NCBI GenBank assembly: GCA_002862085.1
Contig: PKCK01000099.1
Coordinates: forward strand, 1-64,000
DNA: 64,000 nt
Reading direction: 5' to 3'
Source: Planctomycetota bacterium
Lineage (GTDB): Bacteria; Planctomycetota; UBA1135; GCA-002686595
Shown here piece by piece: positions 3,630 through 15,147 of this stretch (position 1 is the stretch's first letter; every line of letters starts with the position of its first letter). Below the pieces are notes generated by a model, which ran no database searches, had not been told where the DNA came from, and worked only from the letters and a program-made list of their open reading frames with translations. A program made the translations under genes and the position numbers.

Positions 3630-4991
3630 ATGGGCATCCCCATCCTCCTCCTCGTCGGCCTCGCCTGTCCGGCCGCGTCCGTCGTGCCTCCGCAAAGCAC
3701 CACGCAGGACGACGGCGCGTCGACGCGCAGCCTCGAGGAACTCCTCGACGAGGCTCGCCGCGCGCGCGTACGCGCGGAGGCCGAGCTGCGGCCAGCGGTT
3801 GCGGAGATCATGGACGGGCTCGACGCGTCCGTGGCGCGCCGCCCGACCGCGAGGACGGACACCGCCAAGCAGGAGCTGATGCAGCTGGGCGAGGCAGCGC
3901 TGCCGCTCGTCGTGCCCTACCTCGACCCCGGTGAGTCCACCGAGAACGGGCCCCGGCTCCGGGCGCAGATCGCCGCGGAGGTGCTCCACGAGCGCCCGTC
4001 GATCGGCGTGACGAGCGCCCTGCTCGACGCCGCCGCCGCGGGCACGCCGACGGCGCGCCGCGGCGCCCTGTTCGCGCTGCGTACGACCCCCGAGCCGCGG
4101 CGGGCGCTCCCTTCGATCGTGACCATCGCCCGCGGCGCCGAAAAGGCCACCGGTGAGGACGGAGAGGAGAAGGCCCGAACAGCCGTCCTCGTGTCCTGCT
4201 ATCGCACCATCGCAGCACTCGGACAGCCGGGATCGACCACCTTCCTGTCCGAGGAGATCGCGAGCGGAGAGCCCGACCGCCAGCGACTGGCCATCGGCGC
4301 CCTCGAGTACGGGCCGACCGACGCCGTCGTCGGTCAGGTCATCGAGCTCTTGCGCTCGAACGCAGCCGCCGGCCTCGCGGAGCCGATCATCGGCTTCCTC
4401 GGGCGCCGCGACGTGCTCCTCGCAGAAGAAGATCTCGCCGAGGCCTTCATCGATCTTGGGCTCCGACCTGGCCTCTCCCCCGAGGATCGGATCGGCGTGT
4501 TCGACCTGGCCCGGATCACCGACGCGGACATGTCCACCGCTGCCAAACGGAAGCTCGAGAAGGACTACGGAGACGCGAGCTCGTCGGACCTGCGACGCGC
4601 CGCGCTCCTGCTCCTCGCCCGCAACAAGGACCGTAGCGCGAAGCGCGACCTGCTCGAGCCCTTCGAGGAACAGATCGCCGCGGGTGGCCGGATGGTGGCG
4701 ATCGCCTACCGGAACCGCGCCGAGCTCAACCACGCGATCGGCGAGTGGAGCGCGGCGGTCAAGGACTGGCGCTCGGCCATGAAGGCGAGCAAGGCGCAGC
4801 GGCTGCGGGGCGACGAGAGCCGCGAGCAGGTGGGCATCGCGAAGTCGCTCGCCCGCATGAAGAAATACCGCGAGGCGGCGGAGTACCTCAAGGACTCACC
4901 GCTCACGCTGCGAGCGCTCCAGGAGCTCGGCCGGGAGCGGGACTTCCGGGAGATGCGCGGCACCAAGTGGGGTCAGGTCTTCCGCCTCTAG
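3630..4991 (+). CDS. Secreted HEAT/TPR-like repeat protein
   Basis: 453 residues from the ATG at 3630, which opens a signal peptide (MGIPILLLVGLACPAASVV). The body is all helical. From about residue 50 to 300 there are HEAT-like pairs with the recurrent ALPLVVPYL and RRGALFAL type helices. The last 100 residues read as TPR, with RAELNHAIGEWSAAVKDW and AKSLARMKKYREAAEYL. There is no catalytic motif. Proteins of this build are usually periplasmic scaffolds. A TATTCT hexamer at 3613-3618 lies 11 bases before the ATG and may be a near-leaderless -10 element. Confidence 0.7.
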   Translation: MGIPILLLVGLACPAASVVPPQSTTQDDGASTRSLEELLDEARRARVRAEAELRPAVAEIMDGLDASVARRPTARTDTAKQELMQLGEAALPLVVPYLDPGESTENGPRLRAQIAAEVLHERPSIGVTSALLDAAAAGTPTARRGALFALRTTPEPRRALPSIVTIARGAEKATGEDGEEKARTAVLVSCYRTIAALGQPGSTTFLSEEIASGEPDRQRLAIGALEYGPTDAVVGQVIELLRSNAAAGLAEPIIGFLGRRDVLLAEEDLAEAFIDLGLRPGLSPEDRIGVFDLARITDADMSTAAKRKLEKDYGDASSSDLRRAALLLLARNKDRSAKRDLLEPFEEQIAAGGRMVAIAYRNRAELNHAIGEWSAAVKDWRSAMKASKAQRLRGDESREQVGIAKSLARMKKYREAAEYLKDSPLTLRALQELGRERDFREMRGTKWGQVFRL

Positions 4992-5278
4992 GTGCACCGC
5001 AGACTCCCTTCGGCTCGAGCTCGGAAGGCAGCTGCGCGGACCGGGTGCGGCCCGCGGCCGACCGAAGGGCGCCGCCCGGGTCAGCTGAGAGCTCTCTCCG
5101 ATCGCCGCGCGGGACGAAGGGTGTGGGCCTCCTTCGCCGAGGGACGCCTCCGATCCGGCCGGAGAGAACGCGCGAGGGTCCGGCGACGCCGCGGGGCCCC
5201 CATACGACGGGTTCACGCCCCCGTCGAGCGCCACGACGAACGACAATACCGCGAGCGCCCTCGAGGCGCCTCCGCCCC

Positions 5279-6607
5279 ATGACCGACACCACCATCCGCT
5301 CGACCGGCCTCACCCTCGAGACCGGGATCCCGATCTGCCAGACGGACCTCCCGCTGGACTGGTACCAGGAGGAGTTCAAACCGTACGCGGAGGAGTACCT
5401 CGCGCTCCCGGATCGTCATCCGGAGACTGTCCTCCCCTGGCTCGACCGGTACACGCTGCCGGCCCTGGACCACTTCGGGGACGAGCTCCTGCTGCTCGCG
5501 CACTTCTACATGGGCGGCGAGATCGTGAAGCTGGTCGAGCGCTACCAGGGCGCCGTCTCCGACAGCTACGTCCTCGCGCTCCAGGCCCTGGAGAACCCGG
5601 GGAAACGGATCATCGTGGAGTCCGCGGTCCACTTCATGGCCGAGACGGTGGCGATCCTCAGCCATCCCCACCAGGAGGTCTGGATCACCAACCCCAAGGC
5701 GGGCTGCACGATGGAGATGCTCGCCAAGGACCACCTCGTCGAGCCGATCGCCGACCAGCTGCTCGAGCGCTACGGCGATGACCTGCTCTGCATCGCGTAC
5801 ATGAACACCAGCGGGCGCCTCAAGGCCCTCGCCGGCCGCACGGGCGGCGCCGTCTGCACCAGCTCGAACGCGCACCACGTCGTCGAGTGGGCCAGGGCCC
5901 AGGGGAAGAAGCTCTTCTTCGTCCCCGATCAGCACCTCGGGCGGAACGTGGCCGACCGCCTGGGCATGGATCAGTCGAAGCTCCTCGCGCTGCCGAACCC
6001 CCAGACGCACGGCGCCAACTACACCCTCGCCGACGTCGACGGCGGCCTCGAGGCCCTCGACGCCGCCGAGATGATCCTGTGGGGCTCGTACTGCGGCGTG
6101 CACACGGTGTTCACCCCCGAGATGGTCGAGCACTGGCGCGCCGACGGTCGCCGCGTCCTCGTGCACCCCGAGTCGCCACTGGAGACCGTGCGCGCCGCGG
6201 ACGGCTCGGGCAGCACCAACTACCTGTGGGACGCGGTCCTCGCAGCGAGGCCCGGGGATCGCCTCGCGATCGGGACCGAGGGACACTTCGTCCGCAACGC
6301 TCGCGTGGAGGGCGCCAAGCGCGGGGTCGACATCGTTCACCTGGCAGAGATCCCCGGATCTCTCGCCGCCGGATGCGGCTGCGCGACCATGAGCCGGAAC
6401 GACCCTCCCCACCTCGCCGGGATGCTCGACCTTCTCCGGCAGGGCAAGGCGCCCGCGATCAATCGTGTCCTCGCTGGTGACTCCGTGGACGAGGTGAGCG
6501 GCGCGCGCGATCGACTCCGAGACGACGAGCGCGCCGAGCTCGTGGTCCAGGCCCGGGCGGCACTCGAGCGCATGATCGAGGTGACCGAGCGGCACCAGGG
6601 GTCCTGA
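5279..6607 (+). CDS. nadA: Quinolinate synthase A
   Basis: 442 residues. NadA condenses iminoaspartate (from NadB) with dihydroxyacetone phosphate to quinolinate, the first committed intermediate of de novo NAD synthesis, on a [4Fe-4S] cluster held by three cysteines. Candidate ligands are C143 in AGCTMEM, C272 in SYCGVH and C366/C368 in GCGCATM. Substrate-binding motifs are also present: LLAHFYMGGEIVKL near the N-terminus, MNTSGR, CTSSNA, FVPDQHLGRN and LVHPESP. The length exceeds the E. coli type (about 350) because of an N-terminal extension and a C-terminal helix. No nadB or nadC is in the window. The start was set at the ATG preceding the family-like N-terminus; the frame is open further upstream but looks non-coding. 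Confidence 0.95.
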   Translation: MTDTTIRSTGLTLETGIPICQTDLPLDWYQEEFKPYAEEYLALPDRHPETVLPWLDRYTLPALDHFGDELLLLAHFYMGGEIVKLVERYQGAVSDSYVLALQALENPGKRIIVESAVHFMAETVAILSHPHQEVWITNPKAGCTMEMLAKDHLVEPIADQLLERYGDDLLCIAYMNTSGRLKALAGRTGGAVCTSSNAHHVVEWARAQGKKLFFVPDQHLGRNVADRLGMDQSKLLALPNPQTHGANYTLADVDGGLEALDAAEMILWGSYCGVHTVFTPEMVEHWRADGRRVLVHPESPLETVRAADGSGSTNYLWDAVLAARPGDRLAIGTEGHFVRNARVEGAKRGVDIVHLAEIPGSLAAGCGCATMSRNDPPHLAGMLDLLRQGKAPAINRVLAGDSVDEVSGARDRLRDDERAELVVQARAALERMIEVTERHQGS

Positions 6608-6635: not shown

Positions 6636-7871
6636 ATGTCCGACGAGGCCCCCCCCTGCCGCCAGGGCCAGCCCCTGGCCCACCGCCCGGTCACCGAGCT
6701 CCGCCACCTCGACCACCTCCTCGAGGGCGCCTTCCCGAGCTTCGGGGGCGGCTACATGCGCCGCGTCTGGGGCCTTCTGGACCGCGCGATCGGCGAGGGC
6801 GTACCGATGACCCTCGCGGTCGCGGGCCCCGTCACGGCCTCCGGCCAGCACATCGCGTGGCTGAACCCGCTCCTCGACACGGGGTGGTTCTGCCTCCTCT
6901 CGACGACCGACGCGGTCTGCTATCACGACGGGCACCGCTCCCTCGACGACGCGGCGAAACACCCGATCCACGAGGTCCCCATCTTCGGTGACGACGGAGC
7001 TCTGCGGGACGACCGCATCATCCGGATCACCGACGTGGGCTTCGACGAAGACCTACTGCTCGGCCAGGACGAGCTCCTCCGTCGCATCCTCGCCCGCCCG
7101 GAGTTCCAGCGTTCCATGTCGGGGACGGAGCTCCGCAACCTGCTCGGCCGCGCCTACGCGGAGCAAGAGGCGCGCACCGGCGCGCCCGAGGGTCTCCTCG
7201 CCCTCTGCCACCGGAAAGCCATCCCGGTCTTCGTCGGCGCGCCCTCCGACGGCTCCGTCTTCCTCAACTCCGTGAAGCTCTGGGCTCTGGCGCGCGCAGG
7301 TCGGGGTGAGCACCGCCTCGACGTCGATCTGCACCTCGAGGTCTTCGAGAGCTGCGCCTACCACGTGTGGGGACAGGACGCCGACGCGGCCGCGGCCGAG
7401 GACCGGCCCGCCAGCCTGGGAGCCCTCGTGCTGGGCGGCGGCGTACCCAAGAACTTCAACCTCCAGCCCGAGCCCGCTCTCAGTCAGATCCTCGGCTTCG
7501 AGGAGATCGGCGGGTACCTCTACGACATCCAGATCACGACCGCGCCGGTCACGGACGGCTCCCTCTCGTCGTGCCCGCCTGCGGAGGCGGTCACCTGGGG
7601 CAAGGTCGACAAGGACGCGTACCAGCGCACGACCGAGTCGATGCCGGCCGACTACTCGATGGTCATGCCGATCCTGACGAAGGCGCTCCTCGACAAGCGC
7701 GCGCGACTCGAGCGGCTGCGGGAAGAGCTCGGGGAGGACGTCCTCCTCCAGCGGCACCCCGAGGCCCGCGGGTACCTGCGGAGCGTCGATGGCTACCGCC
7801 TGTTCGAGCGACGGGACGCGCTCATCGAGACCCTCCAGACCGAGGTCGGCCGCCGCGCGGCCGACTCCTGA
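6636..7871 (+). CDS. Deoxyhypusine-synthase-like enzyme (possibly homospermidine synthase)
   Basis: 411 residues of the deoxyhypusine synthase fold. Family hallmarks are the NAD-binding motif TGWFCLLSTTDA region, FVGAPSDGSVF and LGALVLGGGVPKNFNLQPEP, in which K272 occupies the place of the lysine that forms the enzyme-aminobutyl imine. Bacteria lack eIF5A, so hypusine formation is unlikely. Characterised bacterial relatives transfer the aminobutyl group of spermidine to putrescine (homospermidine) or act on related polyamines. No other polyamine gene is nearby. nadA ends 28 bases upstream on the same strand, but a TACACT hexamer 7 bases before the ATG suggests a separate leaderless transcript. 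Confidence 0.85.
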   Translation: MSDEAPPCRQGQPLAHRPVTELRHLDHLLEGAFPSFGGGYMRRVWGLLDRAIGEGVPMTLAVAGPVTASGQHIAWLNPLLDTGWFCLLSTTDAVCYHDGHRSLDDAAKHPIHEVPIFGDDGALRDDRIIRITDVGFDEDLLLGQDELLRRILARPEFQRSMSGTELRNLLGRAYAEQEARTGAPEGLLALCHRKAIPVFVGAPSDGSVFLNSVKLWALARAGRGEHRLDVDLHLEVFESCAYHVWGQDADAAAAEDRPASLGALVLGGGVPKNFNLQPEPALSQILGFEEIGGYLYDIQITTAPVTDGSLSSCPPAEAVTWGKVDKDAYQRTTESMPADYSMVMPILTKALLDKRARLERLREELGEDVLLQRHPEARGYLRSVDGYRLFERRDALIETLQTEVGRRAADS

Positions 7872-7966: not shown

Positions 7967-9745
7967 TCAGCGGAAGGTGACGCTCGTCGCGCTCGTGAAG
8001 TTGCTGGTGGCGATCCCGAAGATCGAGTCCCGGAACCACGCCGTGAAGCTGAAGGTGTCGCCAGCCTCGGCCATGACCGGGCTCGAGCCGAGCGGAAGCG
8101 TCGTCAGGTCGATCGCGACCGAGAACTCGCCGGCGGCGGAGGCGGCGACGATCTGCCCGGGACCCACGAAGCGACCGAGCGGTGCGCCCAGGCAGAGGTT
8201 GCCAGCGCTGTTCCCGGGATTCGGCACGAACCCGCGATCCGGGCTCACCAGGAAGATCCCGAACTGCCCGGGCGGGAGGCGATCGGCTCGCAGGGTCACG
8301 TCGTTGCTCGCCGCGTAGGGGCTGCCCTCCACGCGGAGTCGCGCCGACTGACCCGTGGAGTTGAGCATGGCCTCGCAGTAATCGACGCCGAGCGCGTTGC
8401 GCTCGTTGAGGTAGACCCGGGTGCCGGAGCAGCGGCCCACGACCATGTCGCGGTCACCGTCGTTGTCGATGTCGAAGATCGCCACGTCGTGGGTCCCGCG
8501 GAGGGCCGGGAGGCCCCGGGCGCCATAGGTGCTGCCCGATCGCTCCTCGACGAGGCTGACGAACCCGCCGACCGTGCCGCCGCGGTTGTGATAGATGTGC
8601 AATCTGCGGTCACACCCGCCGAGGTCGACGTCCACGTCGCAGATGATCGCCTCCGCGAAGTCGTCGCCGTTCAGGTCGACGATGTAGTTGTTGCTGCCGA
8701 ACCCGTCGTCGGTGTTGAAGATCCGGGCGGGCCCCCAGTCGACGCGACCGAAGACATCGTTCCCCTCGTTCAGGAGATAACGGTCCTCCTCGTCGTCGCT
8801 CAGGATCATGTCCGGACGGCCGTCCGCGTTCAGGTCCCCGGTGGCCACGTGATACGGAGCTCCGCTGTAGGGCTCCTGGAGGGTGTTGAAGAAGCCCTCG
8901 TTGTTCGAATTGTTGTAGGCGATCGACGAGCGCGTCAGGCCGCCGGTCTGCCCGGACCCCGACACGGAGATGACGTCCTGGACCCCGTCCCCGTTCATGT
9001 CGTCGATGACGGCCGAGGTGCCGAAGGAGGACCCGCGCATCGCCGGGGTCATGCGGGCGGAGCTCTCGTCCGTGAAGAAGCCCGCCCCGTCGTTGATCAG
9101 CAGACGGTCGTTGAGATCGACCTGGGCCTGCTGCTCGTAGTGGGAGAAGTAGATGTCCGGATAGCCGTCGCCCGTCACGTCGCCCACCGCGACGCCGCAC
9201 ATGTTCGGATAGGTCCCCCAGTCGGGGATGCGCGCCTCCTGGTGGAAGAAGCCCTGCCAGACGCCGCCGACCTCCCCGAGGTTCATGTAGATCCGCGGGT
9301 GGGAGATCGCCTTGGGCTGTCCAGGGGAGAACGTGGTCGCGGTCACGAAGTCGAGCCACCCGTCCTGGTCGAAGTCCCCCACCGCGACGTCCCTGTCGTT
9401 CGTCGGCGTCAAGAAGCCGCTGTCACCAGGGACGTCCGTGGTCGCCGCGTGGAGCGCGCTCTCGTCCGTGAGGACGCCGTTGCGGTTCATGAACAGGACG
9501 TTGCGATAGCGGCCGGTCGTCGTGAAGGGCTGCTTGCGAACGCAGATGAGATCGATCCAGCCATCACGGTCGAAGTCCCCGGTGGCGTAGTCCTTCTCTC
9601 GCACGTCTCCGAGGCCGACGGCGTTGCCGGCCGAGATCCGCGAGTCGTCGCGCGTGAACTCCGCCCAGTCCACGGACTGGGCCCAGGCCGGCGTCAGCGA
9701 GAGGCCGCAGGCGGCCGCGAGGTAGAGAGCTTTCATGTTGATCAT
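7967..9745 (-). CDS. Secreted FG-GAP/VCBS-repeat protein with Cys-containing C-terminal domain
   Basis: About 592 residues. The signal peptide is MINMKALYLAAACGLSLTP, cleaved near AWAQ. At least seven FG-GAP/VCBS blades follow with the calcium-loop pattern DxDxDGxxD, for example DFDRDGWID, DFDQDGWLD, DVTGDGYPD, DMNGDGVQD, DLNADGRPD, DLNGDDFAE and DIDNDGDRD, predicting a beta-propeller. From about residue 455 comes a separate beta-rich domain beginning YCEAMLNSTGQ and containing LPPGQFGIFLVS and LCLGAPLGRF. A related domain ends the product of 12701-13732. It is the last gene of a minus-strand group of secreted proteins, 49 bases after the CRTAC-like gene. ATG at 9736 is an alternative start. 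Confidence 0.85.
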   Translation of the reverse strand: MINMKALYLAAACGLSLTPAWAQSVDWAEFTRDDSRISAGNAVGLGDVREKDYATGDFDRDGWIDLICVRKQPFTTTGRYRNVLFMNRNGVLTDESALHAATTDVPGDSGFLTPTNDRDVAVGDFDQDGWLDFVTATTFSPGQPKAISHPRIYMNLGEVGGVWQGFFHQEARIPDWGTYPNMCGVAVGDVTGDGYPDIYFSHYEQQAQVDLNDRLLINDGAGFFTDESSARMTPAMRGSSFGTSAVIDDMNGDGVQDVISVSGSGQTGGLTRSSIAYNNSNNEGFFNTLQEPYSGAPYHVATGDLNADGRPDMILSDDEEDRYLLNEGNDVFGRVDWGPARIFNTDDGFGSNNYIVDLNGDDFAEAIICDVDVDLGGCDRRLHIYHNRGGTVGGFVSLVEERSGSTYGARGLPALRGTHDVAIFDIDNDGDRDMVVGRCSGTRVYLNERNALGVDYCEAMLNSTGQSARLRVEGSPYAASNDVTLRADRLPPGQFGIFLVSPDRGFVPNPGNSAGNLCLGAPLGRFVGPGQIVAASAAGEFSVAIDLTTLPLGSSPVMAEAGDTFSFTAWFRDSIFGIATSNFTSATSVTFR

Positions 9746-9794: not shown

Positions 9795-11000
9795 TCAGCG
9801 GTCTGCCGCGGCGTAGACGTCGGCGTCCGCGTCCAGCCCGGCCTCCCGCAGGAGCCGGACCAGGCGCGTGTAAGAGCGAGGGGCGGCGTGGAACCAGCGC
9901 GGGCCGCGCTCGAGGCTCCCGTCTCCATCGGAGAACGCGTTGCGTCCCGCGGCCGGGCCGGGCGCGATCACCAGCCGCTGTACGTCACTCAGCATCCGGT
10001 CGCGCCGGAGCGCGCCGAGCTGGAGTGCCTGGACGTTGCCGCCACGGTCGAGGAGCAGGCTGACGGGCAGCGCGAGCTCCGCGCCCGGGCCGAGCACGGA
10101 CTCCACCAGCGCGCGGACGAAGTCCCCGACGCGGGCAGGGTCCGCAGCCTCGAGACTCACGACGGAGACGGTCACGGGATCCTCGGGCCGGAGCTGCTCC
10201 AGGAGGAGCGGGACCTGCGCCTCGCACGTGGCGCACGTGTCGCTCTTCAGGACGAGCAGCCGCGCCGCGCCTCGGGCCTCGCCGGACGCGGGGAGGGACA
10301 GGATCGCGCGGGCGCGCTCCGTCGGGAGCGCATGCGGCGTCCGCAGGACCACGCGATCCGGCAGCGGGGCGCGCTCGAGTTCCCCGCGGTCGAGGCCGAG
10401 CTCCCGCGCGGGCTCGCCGCGACTCTCGCTCAGGAACCCGCGATCCGGCGTGAGCTCGAAGCGGTCCCCGAGGTGGCCGCTGCTCCGCATGGCTCCGCCG
10501 CGGCCGCTCCCGAGCGAGTAGCTGATCCCGACGACCTTGTCCCCTTCCCTGAGCGGCGCCGCCAGGCTGCTGCGCGAGGAGGCGAGATAGCCGTCCGTCC
10601 CGGAACCGCCGCCGAGCCTCAGCCGTCGCTCTGCTCCGCTGCGATCCTGAACGTCCACATCGACGCTCGTCACCAGGACCTGCGAGACCACGCGGACCGT
10701 CCGCCCGGTCCCTCGCTGGTTCTCGAGGTACCGCAGCGCCGGCCCGCTCCGCGACCTCAGCCAGAGGTCCTCGTCCCCGTCGCCGTCCCAGTCGCACCGC
10801 AGCGCGACGCGGCCGTCATCCGCGTGGTCGAGACCCGCGATCGCCGACACGTCCACGAACGTCCCGTCACCGACGGCTCGCCACGCGCGGTTCCGTTCGT
10901 GCCCGCTCCAGGAAACGCCGCGCTCCATCGAACGGGCGAGGTCGCCCCAGCCCGCTCGCGCAGCCCGCGCGCCCTGGCCCTCGACGTCCTGCGGCGCCAC
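9795..11000 (-). CDS. CRTAC-like protein, C-terminal part (ASPIC/UnbV plus thioredoxin-like), in frame after TGA
   Basis: This segment is in the same frame as 11019-12701 and is separated from it only by TGA (11019-11021). The 401 residues counted from the GTG at 11000 are the expected second half of a CRTAC-like protein. They begin with the linker SEFWRRVAP (coded just before this GTG) and SWSGHERN. Then come one more VCBS loop (DWDGDGDEDLWL), an ASPIC/UnbV-type domain with GGGSGTDGYLASS and a thioredoxin-like domain with the CxxC motif DTCATCEAQ near residue 254. It has no signal peptide of its own, so independent translation would leave it in the cytoplasm. That argues for readthrough or for a broken gene. 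See the SECIS-like hairpin entry. Confidence 0.75.
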   Translation of the reverse strand: MAPQDVEGQGARAARAGWGDLARSMERGVSWSGHERNRAWRAVGDGTFVDVSAIAGLDHADDGRVALRCDWDGDGDEDLWLRSRSGPALRYLENQRGTGRTVRVVSQVLVTSVDVDVQDRSGAERRLRLGGGSGTDGYLASSRSSLAAPLREGDKVVGISYSLGSGRGGAMRSSGHLGDRFELTPDRGFLSESRGEPARELGLDRGELERAPLPDRVVLRTPHALPTERARAILSLPASGEARGAARLLVLKSDTCATCEAQVPLLLEQLRPEDPVTVSVVSLEAADPARVGDFVRALVESVLGPGAELALPVSLLLDRGGNVQALQLGALRRDRMLSDVQRLVIAPGPAAGRNAFSDGDGSLERGPRWFHAAPRSYTRLVRLLREAGLDADADVYAAADR

Positions 11001-11021
11001 GCGCCGCCAGAACTCGCTTCA
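10987..11021 (-). promoter_or_regulatory. In-frame TGA followed by SECIS-like stem-loop (candidate selenocysteine site)
   Basis: On the coding strand the TGA at 11021-11019 is followed after 18 bases by the triloop GTG (11000-10998) closed by a perfect 7-bp stem, GCGGCGC against GCGCCGC. A mismatch and three more pairs extend it to 10987-11011. From memory, bacterial SECIS rules ask for an apical loop 16-37 bases after UGA with a G among its first two bases; both are met. The frame is open on both sides and encodes contiguous homologous protein. Coding constraint and high GC could produce such a hairpin by chance. Confidence 0.5.
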
Positions 11022-12701
11022 GAGGTCGCCGGGCTCGGGCCCGGTCAGAAATCCCGCCGGGACGAAGATGTCGAGGAGACCGTCGCGGTCGAAGTCGGTC
11101 ATCACCCCGCCCCAGCCCCAGCGGCCCATCTCGATGCGCGCGCCCTCGCTCCGCTCGAAGCCCCCCTTCCCGTCGGAGAGATAGAGCGAGTTCCCCGAGG
11201 CCAGCCCGCGGATGCGCCGGCGGGCCTCCTCGCCGAGCCCCTCGCCGAAGGAGTCCTGGAACGCCAATCGCCGGCCAGCGGACGAGTACATGTTCGTCAC
11301 GTGGAGGTCGAGGTCGCCATCTCCATCCACGTCTCCCCAGCTCGCTCCCATGCCAGCGCCCGGATCGCACACGGGCGAGTCCACGGCGCGGAAGGACACG
11401 CCGCGATCGCGCTCGAACAGCTGGTTGCTCCCGAAGTCGTTGACCACGTAGAGGTCGAGGCGGTCATCGCCGGTGGCGTCGACGAACTGCGCGGAGAGAC
11501 TGAACCGGCCGCCCGCTTCGGACAGTCCCGCTTCCTCGGTGATGTCGCTCCAGGCCCCCCCGCGCCACTGGAACAGATGATTCGAGGGCCCGTTGCGAGC
11601 CTCGTGGAAGGGCGTGGGCACCGCGTCGCCGTAGCGCGTCGCGACGTATCGCGTGCCGAAGACCTCCGGTACGGCGTCGCCGTCGAGCCGGGCCGCCGCG
11701 ATGGAGTAGAAGCTCGCCTCGTCGGGCGCGCGCAGCATCCCCGTCACGGAGAACGGCCCCTCACCCGCGTTCTCCTGGACCACGATCACGGGACCCAGCG
11801 CGCTCACGACGTCGTCGTCGCCGTCGCCGTCCATGTCGACGAGCAGGACCCCCTTGGTGTCGTCGAGCCACGCGACCCCGTGCTCCTCGGCGACGTCCCT
11901 GACGCGGCCGGACTCCTCCTGGACCAGCAGCAGGTTGGGGACCCCCGAGGGCATGGCCACGTAGAGATCGGGAAGCCCATCACCGTTGACGTCGCCCGCG
12001 GCGATCCCCTGATGGCCGAACCAGGCCGAGAGCGCAGCGTCGTCGAGACGCGTGGCGAGACGGTCCAGGCCCACTCCCAGGAGCTCCGCGAGCTCGGGCT
12101 CCTCGGCGAAGACGCCAGCGGTCCGCTCCACGAAGTAGGGGTCGTCGAGCTGAGAGCGCTCGAAGGACACCAGCTCGAGCTTCATGCAACGCTCGTCCAC
12201 GTCGAAGGACGCGCACGCCAAGGCCGTCGCCTGCCAGACCGGCGGCAGCCCCAGCTCCTCCACGCCGCGCACCTCGATCCGGAGATCGAGGATCATGCCG
12301 CCTGCGTCCCGCCGCGCGCCGATCGTCTTGATCTTCACCTCGCACTCGCCCGGGAAGACCTCACCCCGGACGAAGCATCCTCGCCACGCGGCGGCGACGG
12401 TCTCGGCGCGCTCGGCGCCGTAGGAGCGGACCGTGAGCAGACCAGCGATCTCCGACTCGATCCACTCCTCCGACGAGGGGGCCGGCGCGACGAACACGAC
12501 GCCCGCGCCCAGCGGGCCGGCCTCGCGCCCGTCCACGAACTCTCCGAGCGCCTCGAGCCAGGCCGCCTTCCTCTCGACGAACGCCTCGACCTCGTCCGGG
12601 GTCGGGCCGTCGGGCCCCTCCCCACCCTCGTGGCCCGAGGCCACGGGAGCGAGGAGAGCCGCGGCGGCCAGCGCCGCGCAGACGGGCCGGCGTCCGGTCA
12701 T
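11019..12701 (-). CDS. CRTAC-like secreted VCBS protein, N-terminal part up to in-frame TGA
   Basis: 560 residues from the ATG at 12701, which overlaps the upstream stop (TGATG) and opens a signal peptide (MTGRRPVCAALAAAALLAP, cleaved near VASG). About 200 residues of unassigned sequence are followed by VCBS/FG-GAP loops: DVNGDGLPD, DMDGDGDDD, DATGDDRLD, DVDGDGDLD and DFDRDGLLD. The frame stops at TGA right after FLTGPEPGDL, the point where related proteins normally run on into a WRR-type linker and the ASPIC/UnbV domain. Exactly that sequence follows in the same frame (9795-11018). The product is therefore either truncated by mutation or continued through selenocysteine insertion. Neighbours are secreted proteins in the same direction. 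Confidence 0.82.
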   Translation of the reverse strand: MTGRRPVCAALAAAALLAPVASGHEGGEGPDGPTPDEVEAFVERKAAWLEALGEFVDGREAGPLGAGVVFVAPAPSSEEWIESEIAGLLTVRSYGAERAETVAAAWRGCFVRGEVFPGECEVKIKTIGARRDAGGMILDLRIEVRGVEELGLPPVWQATALACASFDVDERCMKLELVSFERSQLDDPYFVERTAGVFAEEPELAELLGVGLDRLATRLDDAALSAWFGHQGIAAGDVNGDGLPDLYVAMPSGVPNLLLVQEESGRVRDVAEEHGVAWLDDTKGVLLVDMDGDGDDDVVSALGPVIVVQENAGEGPFSVTGMLRAPDEASFYSIAAARLDGDAVPEVFGTRYVATRYGDAVPTPFHEARNGPSNHLFQWRGGAWSDITEEAGLSEAGGRFSLSAQFVDATGDDRLDLYVVNDFGSNQLFERDRGVSFRAVDSPVCDPGAGMGASWGDVDGDGDLDLHVTNMYSSAGRRLAFQDSFGEGLGEEARRRIRGLASGNSLYLSDGKGGFERSEGARIEMGRWGWGGVMTDFDRDGLLDIFVPAGFLTGPEPGDL

Positions 12702-13732
12702 CAGGGGCAGACCGTGAAGCGCGCCGCCTCGGACAGTCCGACGGTCGTGCCGTCCGCCGCGAAACGGTCGCGGTAGAGCCACTGGCAATGGATCGTCTCG
12801 CCGAGCATGAGGCCCTGGCTCGCGAGGAAACCCGCGTCGACGACGCGGCTGAAGCTGCCGCTGCAGTTCGTCCCGTACGCCCCGGTCCCGCCCGAGGTTC
12901 CCGGCTCCAGGATCCTGACGAGCGGCTGGGCCACGCAGAGAGTGCCGCCGAAGAGCGGCGTCTGTGCCTCGTCCCGCCCGAAGACGAACATCCCGAACTG
13001 ACCGTTGATCACGTCCGAGACGGTGAGGGTCAGCGACCCGCTCCCGCTCGACGAAGCCTGGCCGGAGCCCTGGATCGTCGCCACACAGCCGCCGGAGTTC
13101 ACCTTGCCGGTGCAGTACGAGTGGGTTCCGCATTCCAGCACGATGATCGTGAGCGATGCGGGGGCGAGGACATCGACGGGGCGCACCCGCCAGAAGCCGG
13201 CTGGCGATTGGCTCTCGAGGGCGTTCGCGAAACCGCCCGAGAGCGAGAGCGTGTAGGTGCCCGCCGTCGACGGCGCGGTCACCGATCCGATGGCGAGGGT
13301 CTCCGGCGCGCCGTCCGCGAACCCGGTCACGACGATGCCCGAAGGCGTCGGCGCGAACTGGTTGGCGATGGTGTTCATCGCACCGCCCACCTGGAGCAGA
13401 CCGCCGGCCTCGGCCGTCCCGCCGTAGCCGGCGGGATTGTTGAAGCCGCGCGGCGCGACGAACTCCTGGACCGGACCGGACGCGGGCGCCGCCATGGGAT
13501 CGAGCGCCCCACCGTCGAAGGTGGCGTCGAAGGCGAACATGCAGAGACCCAGACTCGCGTCGCCGCCGAGCAGGCCCGTCACCTGGTAGTCGACGGTCGC
13601 TCCCGCGATGACGTGCACCACCGGGCCCTGCCCGGTGGTCACCTCGAGTTGGAGGGTCGTCTGGCCCGCGGAGCTCGCGACGAGTCCGAGCGCGATCGCG
13701 GCGTGGAGGATGCTCTTGTTCATCGTCATCAT
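12701..13732 (-). CDS. Secreted protein with cohesin-like N-domain and Cys-containing C-terminal domain
   Basis: 343 residues. The signal peptide starts at MMTMNKSILHAAIALGLV. Residues 25-190 form an all-beta domain with VIAGATVDYQVTGL, LGLCMFAFDATFDGGAL, NPAGYGGTAEAGGLLQVGG and TAGTYTLSLSG. It resembles the cohesin-like beta sandwich I have seen in planctomycete exported proteins; this is an inference. The rest starts YCTGKVNSGGCVATI and includes INGQFGMFVFG and LCVAQPLVR, matching the C-terminal domain of the VCBS protein at 7967-9745. The start lies 6 bases after the upstream peroxidase gene and the stop overlaps the next start, so it belongs to one operon. GTG at 13741 is an alternative start. 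Confidence 0.75.
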   Translation of the reverse strand: MMTMNKSILHAAIALGLVASSAGQTTLQLEVTTGQGPVVHVIAGATVDYQVTGLLGGDASLGLCMFAFDATFDGGALDPMAAPASGPVQEFVAPRGFNNPAGYGGTAEAGGLLQVGGAMNTIANQFAPTPSGIVVTGFADGAPETLAIGSVTAPSTAGTYTLSLSGGFANALESQSPAGFWRVRPVDVLAPASLTIIVLECGTHSYCTGKVNSGGCVATIQGSGQASSSGSGSLTLTVSDVINGQFGMFVFGRDEAQTPLFGGTLCVAQPLVRILEPGTSGGTGAYGTNCSGSFSRVVDAGFLASQGLMLGETIHCQWLYRDRFAADGTTVGLSEAARFTVCP

Positions 13733-13737
13733 CTCGC

Positions 13738-15147
13738 TCACTGTCCCGTCCAGGCGCGCTGGAGCTTGCCGAACTCGACGAGGTCGAAGTCCCCGTCCTG
13801 GTCCACGTCCGCGATGGCGCCAGGATCGTCCGGCGTGATCGGGGTCGCCGGCGCCGGGCCAGTGGCGAAGGGTTCGACGAAGAACCAGTCGAACTCGTCG
13901 ATCGTGTTGTTCACGTCCCAGTCGAACTCGGCTCGGCCGAGGGAGGTCAGGAAGGCGATGACCGCGTCCTTGTCCTGCTGGCCGAGGGCCTGGTAGGCCG
14001 CGGCCGAAGGGGCGGCGGTCCCGCCGTGCTCCGCGATGGCGCTCTCCACGTTGTCGGCGAAGGTGCCGCCGAGGGCTCGGCCGTCGTGGAGGTAGGCGTT
14101 GCGCTGGACGAGGCCCCAGAGCGGGCGCGTCATCATCTCGGTCTCGGTGGCCTCGCCCTCCACGATGCCGTCACCGAGGAGGCCCATGTCGTGCAGCAGG
14201 AAGTCCGAGTAGGGCTGGATCAGCTGCCCGGAGAGCGCCGCCTCCGGCGCGTTTCCCGTCGTGTAGCGGCCCACGTGGCAGTCGGCGCAGCCGATCGCCT
14301 CGAAGACGGCCTCGCCGGTCATGCCCGAGCGCGGCGTCTGCGCCGGCGCCGCCAGGAGCCGCTGGAAATCGGTGAAGCGCTCGGTCCGCCGCACGCCGAA
14401 GGCATCGGGGAGGTCCTCCGGATCCGCGACCGTGTCGCACTGCGCGAGCAGGGCCATGTCACCGTTCGGCGCGTTCTCGAACGGCAGCTCGGGGCTGGTC
14501 AGGCCCATCTCGTTGAGCGCAGCGTCGAGGGAGAAGCTCTCCACGGTCGCGATGCCACCCTTCCAGCCGAAACGACCGACGCGCTGCGGCCCGTTGGGGT
14601 CCTCGAAGGGCTGCACCATGTGCACCCGGCCCGCGAGGCCGAAGGGCTGGTTGGCCGCTCGGTCGAGCAGCACGCTCTCGGGGATCGCCTCGAGCAGGCC
14701 CAGCCCGAAGAGGATCGGCGTCCCCCGCTCGGCCGTCACCGTCGCCTGGACCGGCACGGTCTCACGGCATCCGATGTTGAAGAACTGGTCCTGGAGCAGC
14801 GTGCCGCCGAATCCGTCGAGGGACTGGAACGGAGCTCCGTTCGCGGCCGCGATGCCGAAGCGGGTCACGCGCCGCGTCCCGAACCCGCCGATCGCCGGCA
14901 CGTTGTGGCAGCCCGCGCAGGTGACCTCGTTGAAGATCGGGCCGGCGCCCTCCGACTGCAGGACCGGCGTCGTGAATGCGACGAGCCCGGCGTCGAAGCG
15001 AGCCAGCTCGGCAGACGTCAGCCCGGACACGGGCCGGCCCATGACGGGCTGCGGCTCCTGGGCCATGAGAGGGGTCGCGGCGGCCACGAAACCCGCGAGC
15101 GCGAGCGCGCGCGCGAGGGCCGGCGACGTGCGTCGCACCGGAACCAT
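13738..15147 (-). CDS. Secreted di-haem peroxidase-like protein with dockerin-like tail
   Basis: 469 residues. The signal peptide runs from MVPVRRTSP to about ATPLMAQ. Two c-type haem sites are visible: CAGCH at 77-81, in the family context EVTCAGCHNVPAIGG, and CADCH at 287-291. This matches the DHOR/thiol-oxidoreductase family of periplasmic di-haem oxidoreductases, which are relatives of cytochrome c peroxidase. The C-terminal 60 residues add two EF-hand/dockerin-like loops, DWDVNNTIDEFDWFF and DVDQDGDFDLVEFGKLQ, unusual for the family. First gene of a four-gene group of secreted proteins. AGGA lies about 8 bases before the ATG. The physiological substrate is unknown. Confidence 0.85.
   Translation of the reverse strand: MVPVRRTSPALARALALAGFVAAATPLMAQEPQPVMGRPVSGLTSAELARFDAGLVAFTTPVLQSEGAGPIFNEVTCAGCHNVPAIGGFGTRRVTRFGIAAANGAPFQSLDGFGGTLLQDQFFNIGCRETVPVQATVTAERGTPILFGLGLLEAIPESVLLDRAANQPFGLAGRVHMVQPFEDPNGPQRVGRFGWKGGIATVESFSLDAALNEMGLTSPELPFENAPNGDMALLAQCDTVADPEDLPDAFGVRRTERFTDFQRLLAAPAQTPRSGMTGEAVFEAIGCADCHVGRYTTGNAPEAALSGQLIQPYSDFLLHDMGLLGDGIVEGEATETEMMTRPLWGLVQRNAYLHDGRALGGTFADNVESAIAEHGGTAAPSAAAYQALGQQDKDAVIAFLTSLGRAEFDWDVNNTIDEFDWFFVEPFATGPAPATPITPDDPGAIADVDQDGDFDLVEFGKLQRAWTGQ

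Follow-up and report, generated by a model that had tools for sequence, protein, structure and literature searches.

According to a 2026 catalogue of prokaryotic selenoproteins (PMC13188914), most characterised selenoproteins possess a thioredoxin-like fold, and bacterial selenocysteine insertion sequence (SECIS) elements are hairpins with a stem of 4-16 bp, a loop of 3-9 nt, a minimum free energy (MFE) of -7.5 or lower, a G within the first two loop positions and a distance of 16-37 nt from the UGA. Selenoproteins have already been described in planctomycetes (PMC4807772). The gene described here, designated Sec-CRTAC, would place its selenocysteine (Sec) in a propeller, unlike the thioredoxin-like fold mentioned above. 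It lies on the minus strand of the window, that is, the whole 64,000-nt stretch of contig PKCK01000099.1 from a Planctomycetota bacterium (assembly GCA_002862085.1), where positions 12701-9798 form a single frame of 968 codons. The sole internal stop of this frame is a TGA, codon 561 (11021-11019), situated between GFLTGPEPGDL and SEFWRRVAP. A preliminary description of this DNA had likewise seen one frame split by a single TGA and had proposed Sec for that codon, a proposal which is now supported by the sel genes of the genome, the conservation of the TGA and a covarying hairpin downstream of it. Judging from these sequence data, the UGA of this gene is almost certainly decoded as Sec, and very probably the product is, in addition, correctly placed as a selenoprotein built on a CRTAC1-like FG-GAP propeller.

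The protein comprises a propeller, a further beta domain and a C-terminal thioredoxin-like domain. It matches the FG-GAP family (PF13517) with an E-value of 2e-30, and its AlphaFold2 model (73 sequences; pLDDT 87.2, pTM 0.91), in which the chain runs continuously across the TGA join, has murine CRTAC1 (9etn, E 5.6e-22) as the best PDB match in Foldseek. The first half (11022-12701, minus strand) corresponds to a 94% identical database entry of 560 amino acids (P0002), given there as a finished 'VCBS repeat-containing protein', while the second half (9798-11018, minus strand) encodes the rest of the propeller and the two following domains and is under purifying selection in relatives. The earlier assignment to the VCBS-ASPIC/UnbV proteins held as far as the FG-GAP propeller and the CRTAC1 fold are concerned, but the UnbV_ASPIC domain (PF07593) was found in relatives and not in the window protein, where the Pfam search gave no match up to E 0.1. 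Among six relatives scanned, this domain was over the cut-off in five (L191, L192, L204, L066 and L060) and just below it in L189. Since the window protein has no such match, it is filed here as CRTAC-like and not as an ASPIC member.

In the model, residue 561 occupies the second position of helix 560-567 and thus belongs to its first turn. Further on, strand 813-819 is followed by helix 824-836, at the start of which stands CATC (residues 823-826; 10224-10235, minus strand), the CxxC motif that had already been noticed in a thioredoxin-like domain. This domain of the window protein is too divergent for any Pfam match; its counterpart in L191 has matches to ResA (4nmu, E 4.5e-9) and TlpA (1jfu, E 4.5e-7). 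Among the six scanned members, AhpC-TSA was over the cut-off in L191, L192 and L204, below it in L066 and L060, and gave no match in L189, and three of the six (L192, L189 and L066) end in TPR repeats. The protein appears to be exported; both this and the lack of a leader in the second half were judged by eye from the sequence.

The TGA is conserved among relatives. A sample of best matches, drawn from 25 loci of a contig search and from 151 genomes (the window's own and 150 relatives, 112 of the 151 having a match, from which up to 30 loci were taken at first and 80 more thereafter), provided 124 aligned DNA loci, 94 of which have TGA at the homologous codon and 30 another codon; as the same genome occurs twice among some of the 94, they represent 87 distinct loci. 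They span many genus groups and include one case beyond Planctomycetota, namely L029 from Akkermansiaceae, phylum Verrucomicrobiota. Past the TGA, the open stretch has a median length of 439 codons, versus 35 and 41.5 in the two other frames (n=94). Of 12 close pairs, 11 gave dN/dS values of 0.03-0.16 before the TGA and 0.07-0.30 after it, the twelfth pair being not computable and synonymous sites being near saturation in some pairs. Sense relatives, counted in the enlarged set of 173 sense rows introduced below, mostly have Ala (51), Glu (35), Ser (34), Asp (15) or Gly (13) at this site, and rarely Cys (6). Of the 120 homologues among the database matches listed, 24 have GDL as their last residues, precisely at the TGA position (P0001 to P0119, at least 54% identity). 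One database protein, P0096, ends at the homologous place with GFLTGQTAADC, i.e. in DC, with Cys near the end instead of Leu, and one copy (L142; G118:C60:43493-45001) contains one TGA and one TAG in frame, which is perhaps a sign of decay or a sequencing error.

The hairpin begins 11 nt past the TGA (10991-11007, minus strand) and has the structure given in the preliminary description: the stem GCGGCGC (11007-11001)/GCGCCGC (10997-10991) consists of seven G-C/C-G pairs, and its GTG triloop (11000-10998) lies 18 nt from the TGA. A 39-nt segment containing it folds with -19.7 kcal/mol (z -2.35), 6 of 200 shuffled sequences being as stable. With these values of stem, loop, spacing and energy the hairpin falls within the SECIS rules of PMC13188914, in accordance with what had been claimed for its spacing and loop G. 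When the TGA is numbered 1-3, the core of the stem extends from pair 15:31 to pair 20:26. Its six pairs are all formed in 82 of the 85 distinct TGA sequences versus 1 of the 25 sense relatives with the FW motif, after five rows without that motif (L030, L031, L035 and, twice, L039) had been dropped, and in 110 of 114 sequences when the hairpin set was enlarged. Synonymous recoding of the TGA genes leaves on average 3.57 of the six pairs, and no more than 3.94 in any of 300 sets, whereas 5.96 are observed; the mean hairpin energy is -9.97 kcal/mol observed versus -5.33 kcal/mol in 20 recoded sets. An MFE of -7.5 or lower over 21 nt is reached by 84 of the 85 distinct TGA sequences. In the enlarged hairpin set, pair 20:26 occurs as A-U (66) or G-C (48), pair 18:28 as G-U (51), A-U (35), C-G (14), G-C (11), U-A (2) and C-U (1), and pair 19:27 inverts once from C-G to G-C; 99.1% of the cells are paired, compared with at most 92.0% when partners are shuffled. 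The RNA structure is thus conserved despite changes of the encoded amino acids (FWRRV, FWRQV, FWRHV, FWREV). Two TGA copies, L171 and L172, have four and three of the six core pairs, respectively, in the usual register.

The host genome (4.39 Mb, 90% complete) contains all the components that the preliminary description had proposed to look for: selA (E 1.2e-119), selB (above its cut-off), selD and a tRNA-Sec (70.8 bits, anticodon TCA). Sec-containing SelD proteins are already known, and the host selD (L018, G000:C12:18773-19720), with its one in-frame TGA at the UxxK motif, resembles these. The genome has three family members, i.e. the window gene and those on C16 (L188) and C119 (L189), so that the window gene is not a single oddity. 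The second Sec-CRTAC gene at L189:618-4178 has kept the TGA and the hairpin, and its C-terminal part is without CxxC.

As 142 of the 151 near relatives possess selA, its co-occurrence with the TGA is uninformative among them, and a sample of the phylum was taken instead. The pattern TGARGYNNNTWYTGGCGNCRNGTN was found in 63 of 392 sampled Planctomycetota genomes, belonging to 20 family groups, and the reversed pattern in none of the 392. Forty-four distinct matches were inspected and 43 stood in a CRTAC-like context; L176, from G175, the sole pattern genome of its group, was rejected as a chance match. Up to four copies of the pattern are present per genome (G291, G412). SelA accompanies the pattern in 60 of the 63 genomes versus 185 of the 329 others (Fisher test, 1.6e-10, with kinship ignored and the 2 x 2 counts compiled by hand from genome lists).

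The presence of Sec is coupled to that of the C-terminal CxxC, scored as any C..C 180 to 460 or 480 residues past the site. A first count gave CxxC in 78 of 81 TGA proteins versus 2 of 95 sense proteins, the latter rows containing some duplicates; it covered the 81 of 87 distinct TGA loci with at least 330 residues past the site and the 70 of 120 database proteins having both the motif and that length. The duplicates were removed for a first tree of 202 rows (CxxC in 110 of 116 rows with Sec and in 2 of 86 without), in which five pairs agreed with the coupling, none opposed it and two showed no difference (p 0.06). The set was then enlarged by 87 database proteins selected solely as homologues of L191; of 117 new proteins considered, 28 had no recognisable site and two were too short. 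CxxC is present in 110 of 116 Sec rows versus 17 of 173 sense rows of the enlarged set, two of these 17 (P0044 and P0136) being doubtful as thioredoxin sites by their context, and in 78 Sec rows it lies 229-295 residues past the site. The coupling tree, from which the site residues and the thioredoxin domain were excluded, yielded 13 independent pairs differing in Sec, counted on well supported branches only. CxxC differed in the same direction in a mean of 7.6 pairs and in the opposite direction in none, while 5.4 pairs did not differ in it (median p 0.008, range 0.004-0.06). Among Cys-bearing relatives, a thioredoxin-like CxxC is found in P0123, P0125 and P0127, and none in P0007 and P0008. 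Beyond the preliminary description, the gene is hence a member of a conserved multi-copy family across the phylum in which Sec travels with the C-terminal CxxC, and as the two are kept or lost together, a selenol/thiol relay is the preferred reading.

The protein may thus be envisaged as a secreted selenol/thiol oxidoreductase in which a thioredoxin domain of the same chain serves the Sec of the propeller. SelB and tRNA-Sec, aided by the downstream hairpin, would insert Sec at codon 561, and the position of the residue in the first turn of a helix, as seen in the AlphaFold2 model, would lower the pKa of the selenol. The latter could be oxidised by a substrate, be it a peroxide, a disulfide or another oxidised partner, and restored by the CxxC of the TlpA/ResA-like C-terminal domain; such recharging would explain the joint retention or loss of Sec and CxxC. 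A redox role for this Sec seems likely, while the odds that the relay with its own CxxC runs within one molecule appear to be even. Taken as a whole, a rough probability of 50% is given to a new class of secreted selenoenzymes, in which the selenol borne by a CRTAC-type propeller is recharged by the fused TlpA-like domain, a single chain uniting reductant and catalyst. This class would extend across Planctomycetota, with as many as four copies in one genome, and would reach Verrucomicrobiota (Akkermansiaceae), lineages which lose selenium dropping the CxxC as well and retaining a non-redox propeller.

Several observations weigh against this reading. Three of the 63 pattern genomes (G293, G314 and G397; 77-91% complete) and seven TGA-bearing relatives (G028, G053, G060, G065, G077, G132 and G136; 64-90% complete) have no selA match. 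Hairpin energy alone separates the groups poorly, since 9 of 25 sense relatives also reach -7.5, through other registers or by chance. Cys is the usual stand-in for Sec; the homologue comparison proposed in the preliminary description did recover TGA in 94 loci, but Cys in only 6 of 173 sense rows. A thioredoxin-like CxxC is present in only three of these six, that of P0136 differing by context. Six Sec proteins (L055, L056, L057, L157, L172 and L194) are without CxxC, L157 being the gene of L189, i.e. the second copy in the host genome. Finally, CxxC did not differ in 5.4 of the 13 pairs, and the tree from which these come, made with FastTree, contains some long branches to which the tool itself drew attention.

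The same data have to be confronted with other explanations. If the TGA were a true stop and the second half were translated alone as a subunit (gene fission), the 25 of 120 database proteins among the matches listed that terminate at the TGA would be complete proteins, and the ATG or GTG found at codon +7 in 45 of 85 sequences and at +8 in 39 of 85 could serve as a start. However, this start-like codon shifts between the two positions and no new start is fixed, as 33 of the 85 have no in-frame ATG within the next 59 codons. Moreover, the join falls inside a propeller whose model is continuous, the second half, judged by eye, begins without a leader, and a plain stop leaves unexplained both the covarying hairpin and its lack in sense relatives; on those grounds gene fission was rejected as highly improbable. 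A nonsense mutation, a pseudogene or a one-base sequencing error, which the preliminary description had kept as its alternative, would look alike in one genome, namely as a lone TGA in an open frame. Yet the TGA stands at the same codon in 94 loci of many genus groups with the above dN/dS values on both of its sides, and neither mutation nor error would be found again, together with a covarying hairpin, in one independent genome after another, so that conservation refutes this explanation and its probability is practically nil.

Readthrough of the UGA by a near-cognate tRNA (e.g. for Trp or Cys), or inefficient readthrough yielding a long and a short form, would leave selenium without a role. 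It agrees with the many residues tolerated at the site in sense relatives, as the residue then need not be redox active, but not with a hairpin that fits the SECIS rules of PMC13188914. With selA accompanying the pattern and Sec accompanying CxxC, such readthrough is considered very improbable. More weight is due to the idea that the protein is a selenoprotein whose Sec acts as a metal ligand or structural residue, the CxxC domain having another purpose; FG-GAP propellers bind calcium, which counts in its favour. In addition, about 20% of the known selenoprotein families are predicted to bind atoms or chemical moieties, metals taking part in about 70% of these interactions (PMC13188914). It is nevertheless rather unlikely, given that changes in Sec and in CxxC coincide in independent lineages with no opposite pairs, even though 5.4 of the 13 pairs show no difference.

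The Sec-CRTAC gene belongs to a run of four genes on the minus strand, which is headed by a di-haem oxidoreductase (PF06537 DHOR, E 3.6e-35; 13741-15147) with two CxxCH motifs, its start being taken as the ATG before the homologous part. It is followed by a gene of an unknown family (12704-13741, 346 amino acids), whose stop overlaps the start of the Sec-CRTAC gene and which is a conserved neighbour in relatives, and, downstream of Sec-CRTAC, by a gene for an FG-GAP repeat protein of 592 amino acids (7970-9745), likewise conserved. The order is the same in L022 to L027, and L021 begins inside the first gene; these are loci near the window, most others having only about 1.5 kb of flank. PF06537 proteins are named probable thiol oxidoreductases in the COG list, a designation that would fit here, and the di-haem oxidoreductase may be a redox partner of Sec-CRTAC in this clade. 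Elsewhere in the window, 6636-7868 (plus strand) encodes a protein resembling deoxyhypusine synthase (PF01916, E 8.5e-33), here in a bacterial genome, and in the 620-aa frame at 4745-6604 (plus strand) the NadA match spans residues 247-563 only, which means that either the N-terminus is greatly extended or the start is wrongly placed.

No description of such a family was encountered in the sources searched. Table 1 of the catalogue of 119 prokaryotic selenoprotein families and subfamilies (PMC13188914), the part available, lists no FG-GAP, VCBS, CRTAC, ASPIC or propeller family, and no NCBIfam model of June 2026 matches the window protein at E 0.01. Among the papers listed, the literature search gave nothing that pairs selenocysteine with FG-GAP, VCBS or UnbV, unnamed candidates in supplementary tables being possible, and no paper combining selenoprotein, FG-GAP and Planctomycetes; papers on selenocysteine together with CRTAC1 or ASPIC dealt, by their titles, with other subjects. 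The gene adds a widespread selenoprotein family, some members of which appear in public databases cut off at the UGA, and it is probable that a large selenoprotein family has so far passed for truncated genes. If these proteins are exported, selenium would be a working element of planctomycete proteins outside the cytoplasm. The coupled loss of Sec and CxxC, in turn, provides a testable statement that some CRTAC/ASPIC proteins are enzymes.

With CRTAC1 and the ASPIC/UnbV FG-GAP proteins (PF13517, PF01839, PF07593; 9etn) Sec-CRTAC has in common the propeller fold and the FG-GAP repeats, and its relatives also the UnbV_ASPIC domain. It differs from CRTAC1 in the Sec within a helix of the propeller part and in the fused C-terminal thioredoxin-like domain, followed by TPR repeats in half of the scanned members; in a sequence alignment with mouse CRTAC1 the Sec site had no clear partner. 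The ResA/TlpA thiol-disulfide oxidoreductases are matched by the C-terminal domain of L191, but here that domain is fused to a large propeller protein. As to the bacterial selenoproteins of thioredoxin fold, such as TlpA-type proteins with UGC, ResA-like proteins with WAxxUGC (NF041054), Sec-peroxiredoxin and Sec-MsrA, they share with Sec-CRTAC the UGA followed by a hairpin, the presence of a thioredoxin-type domain in the selenoprotein itself and, according to the model, a Sec at the start of a helix. In Sec-CRTAC, however, there is no CxxU or UxxC motif: the thioredoxin domain has two Cys, and the Sec resides in the propeller, 262 residues ahead of the first of them.

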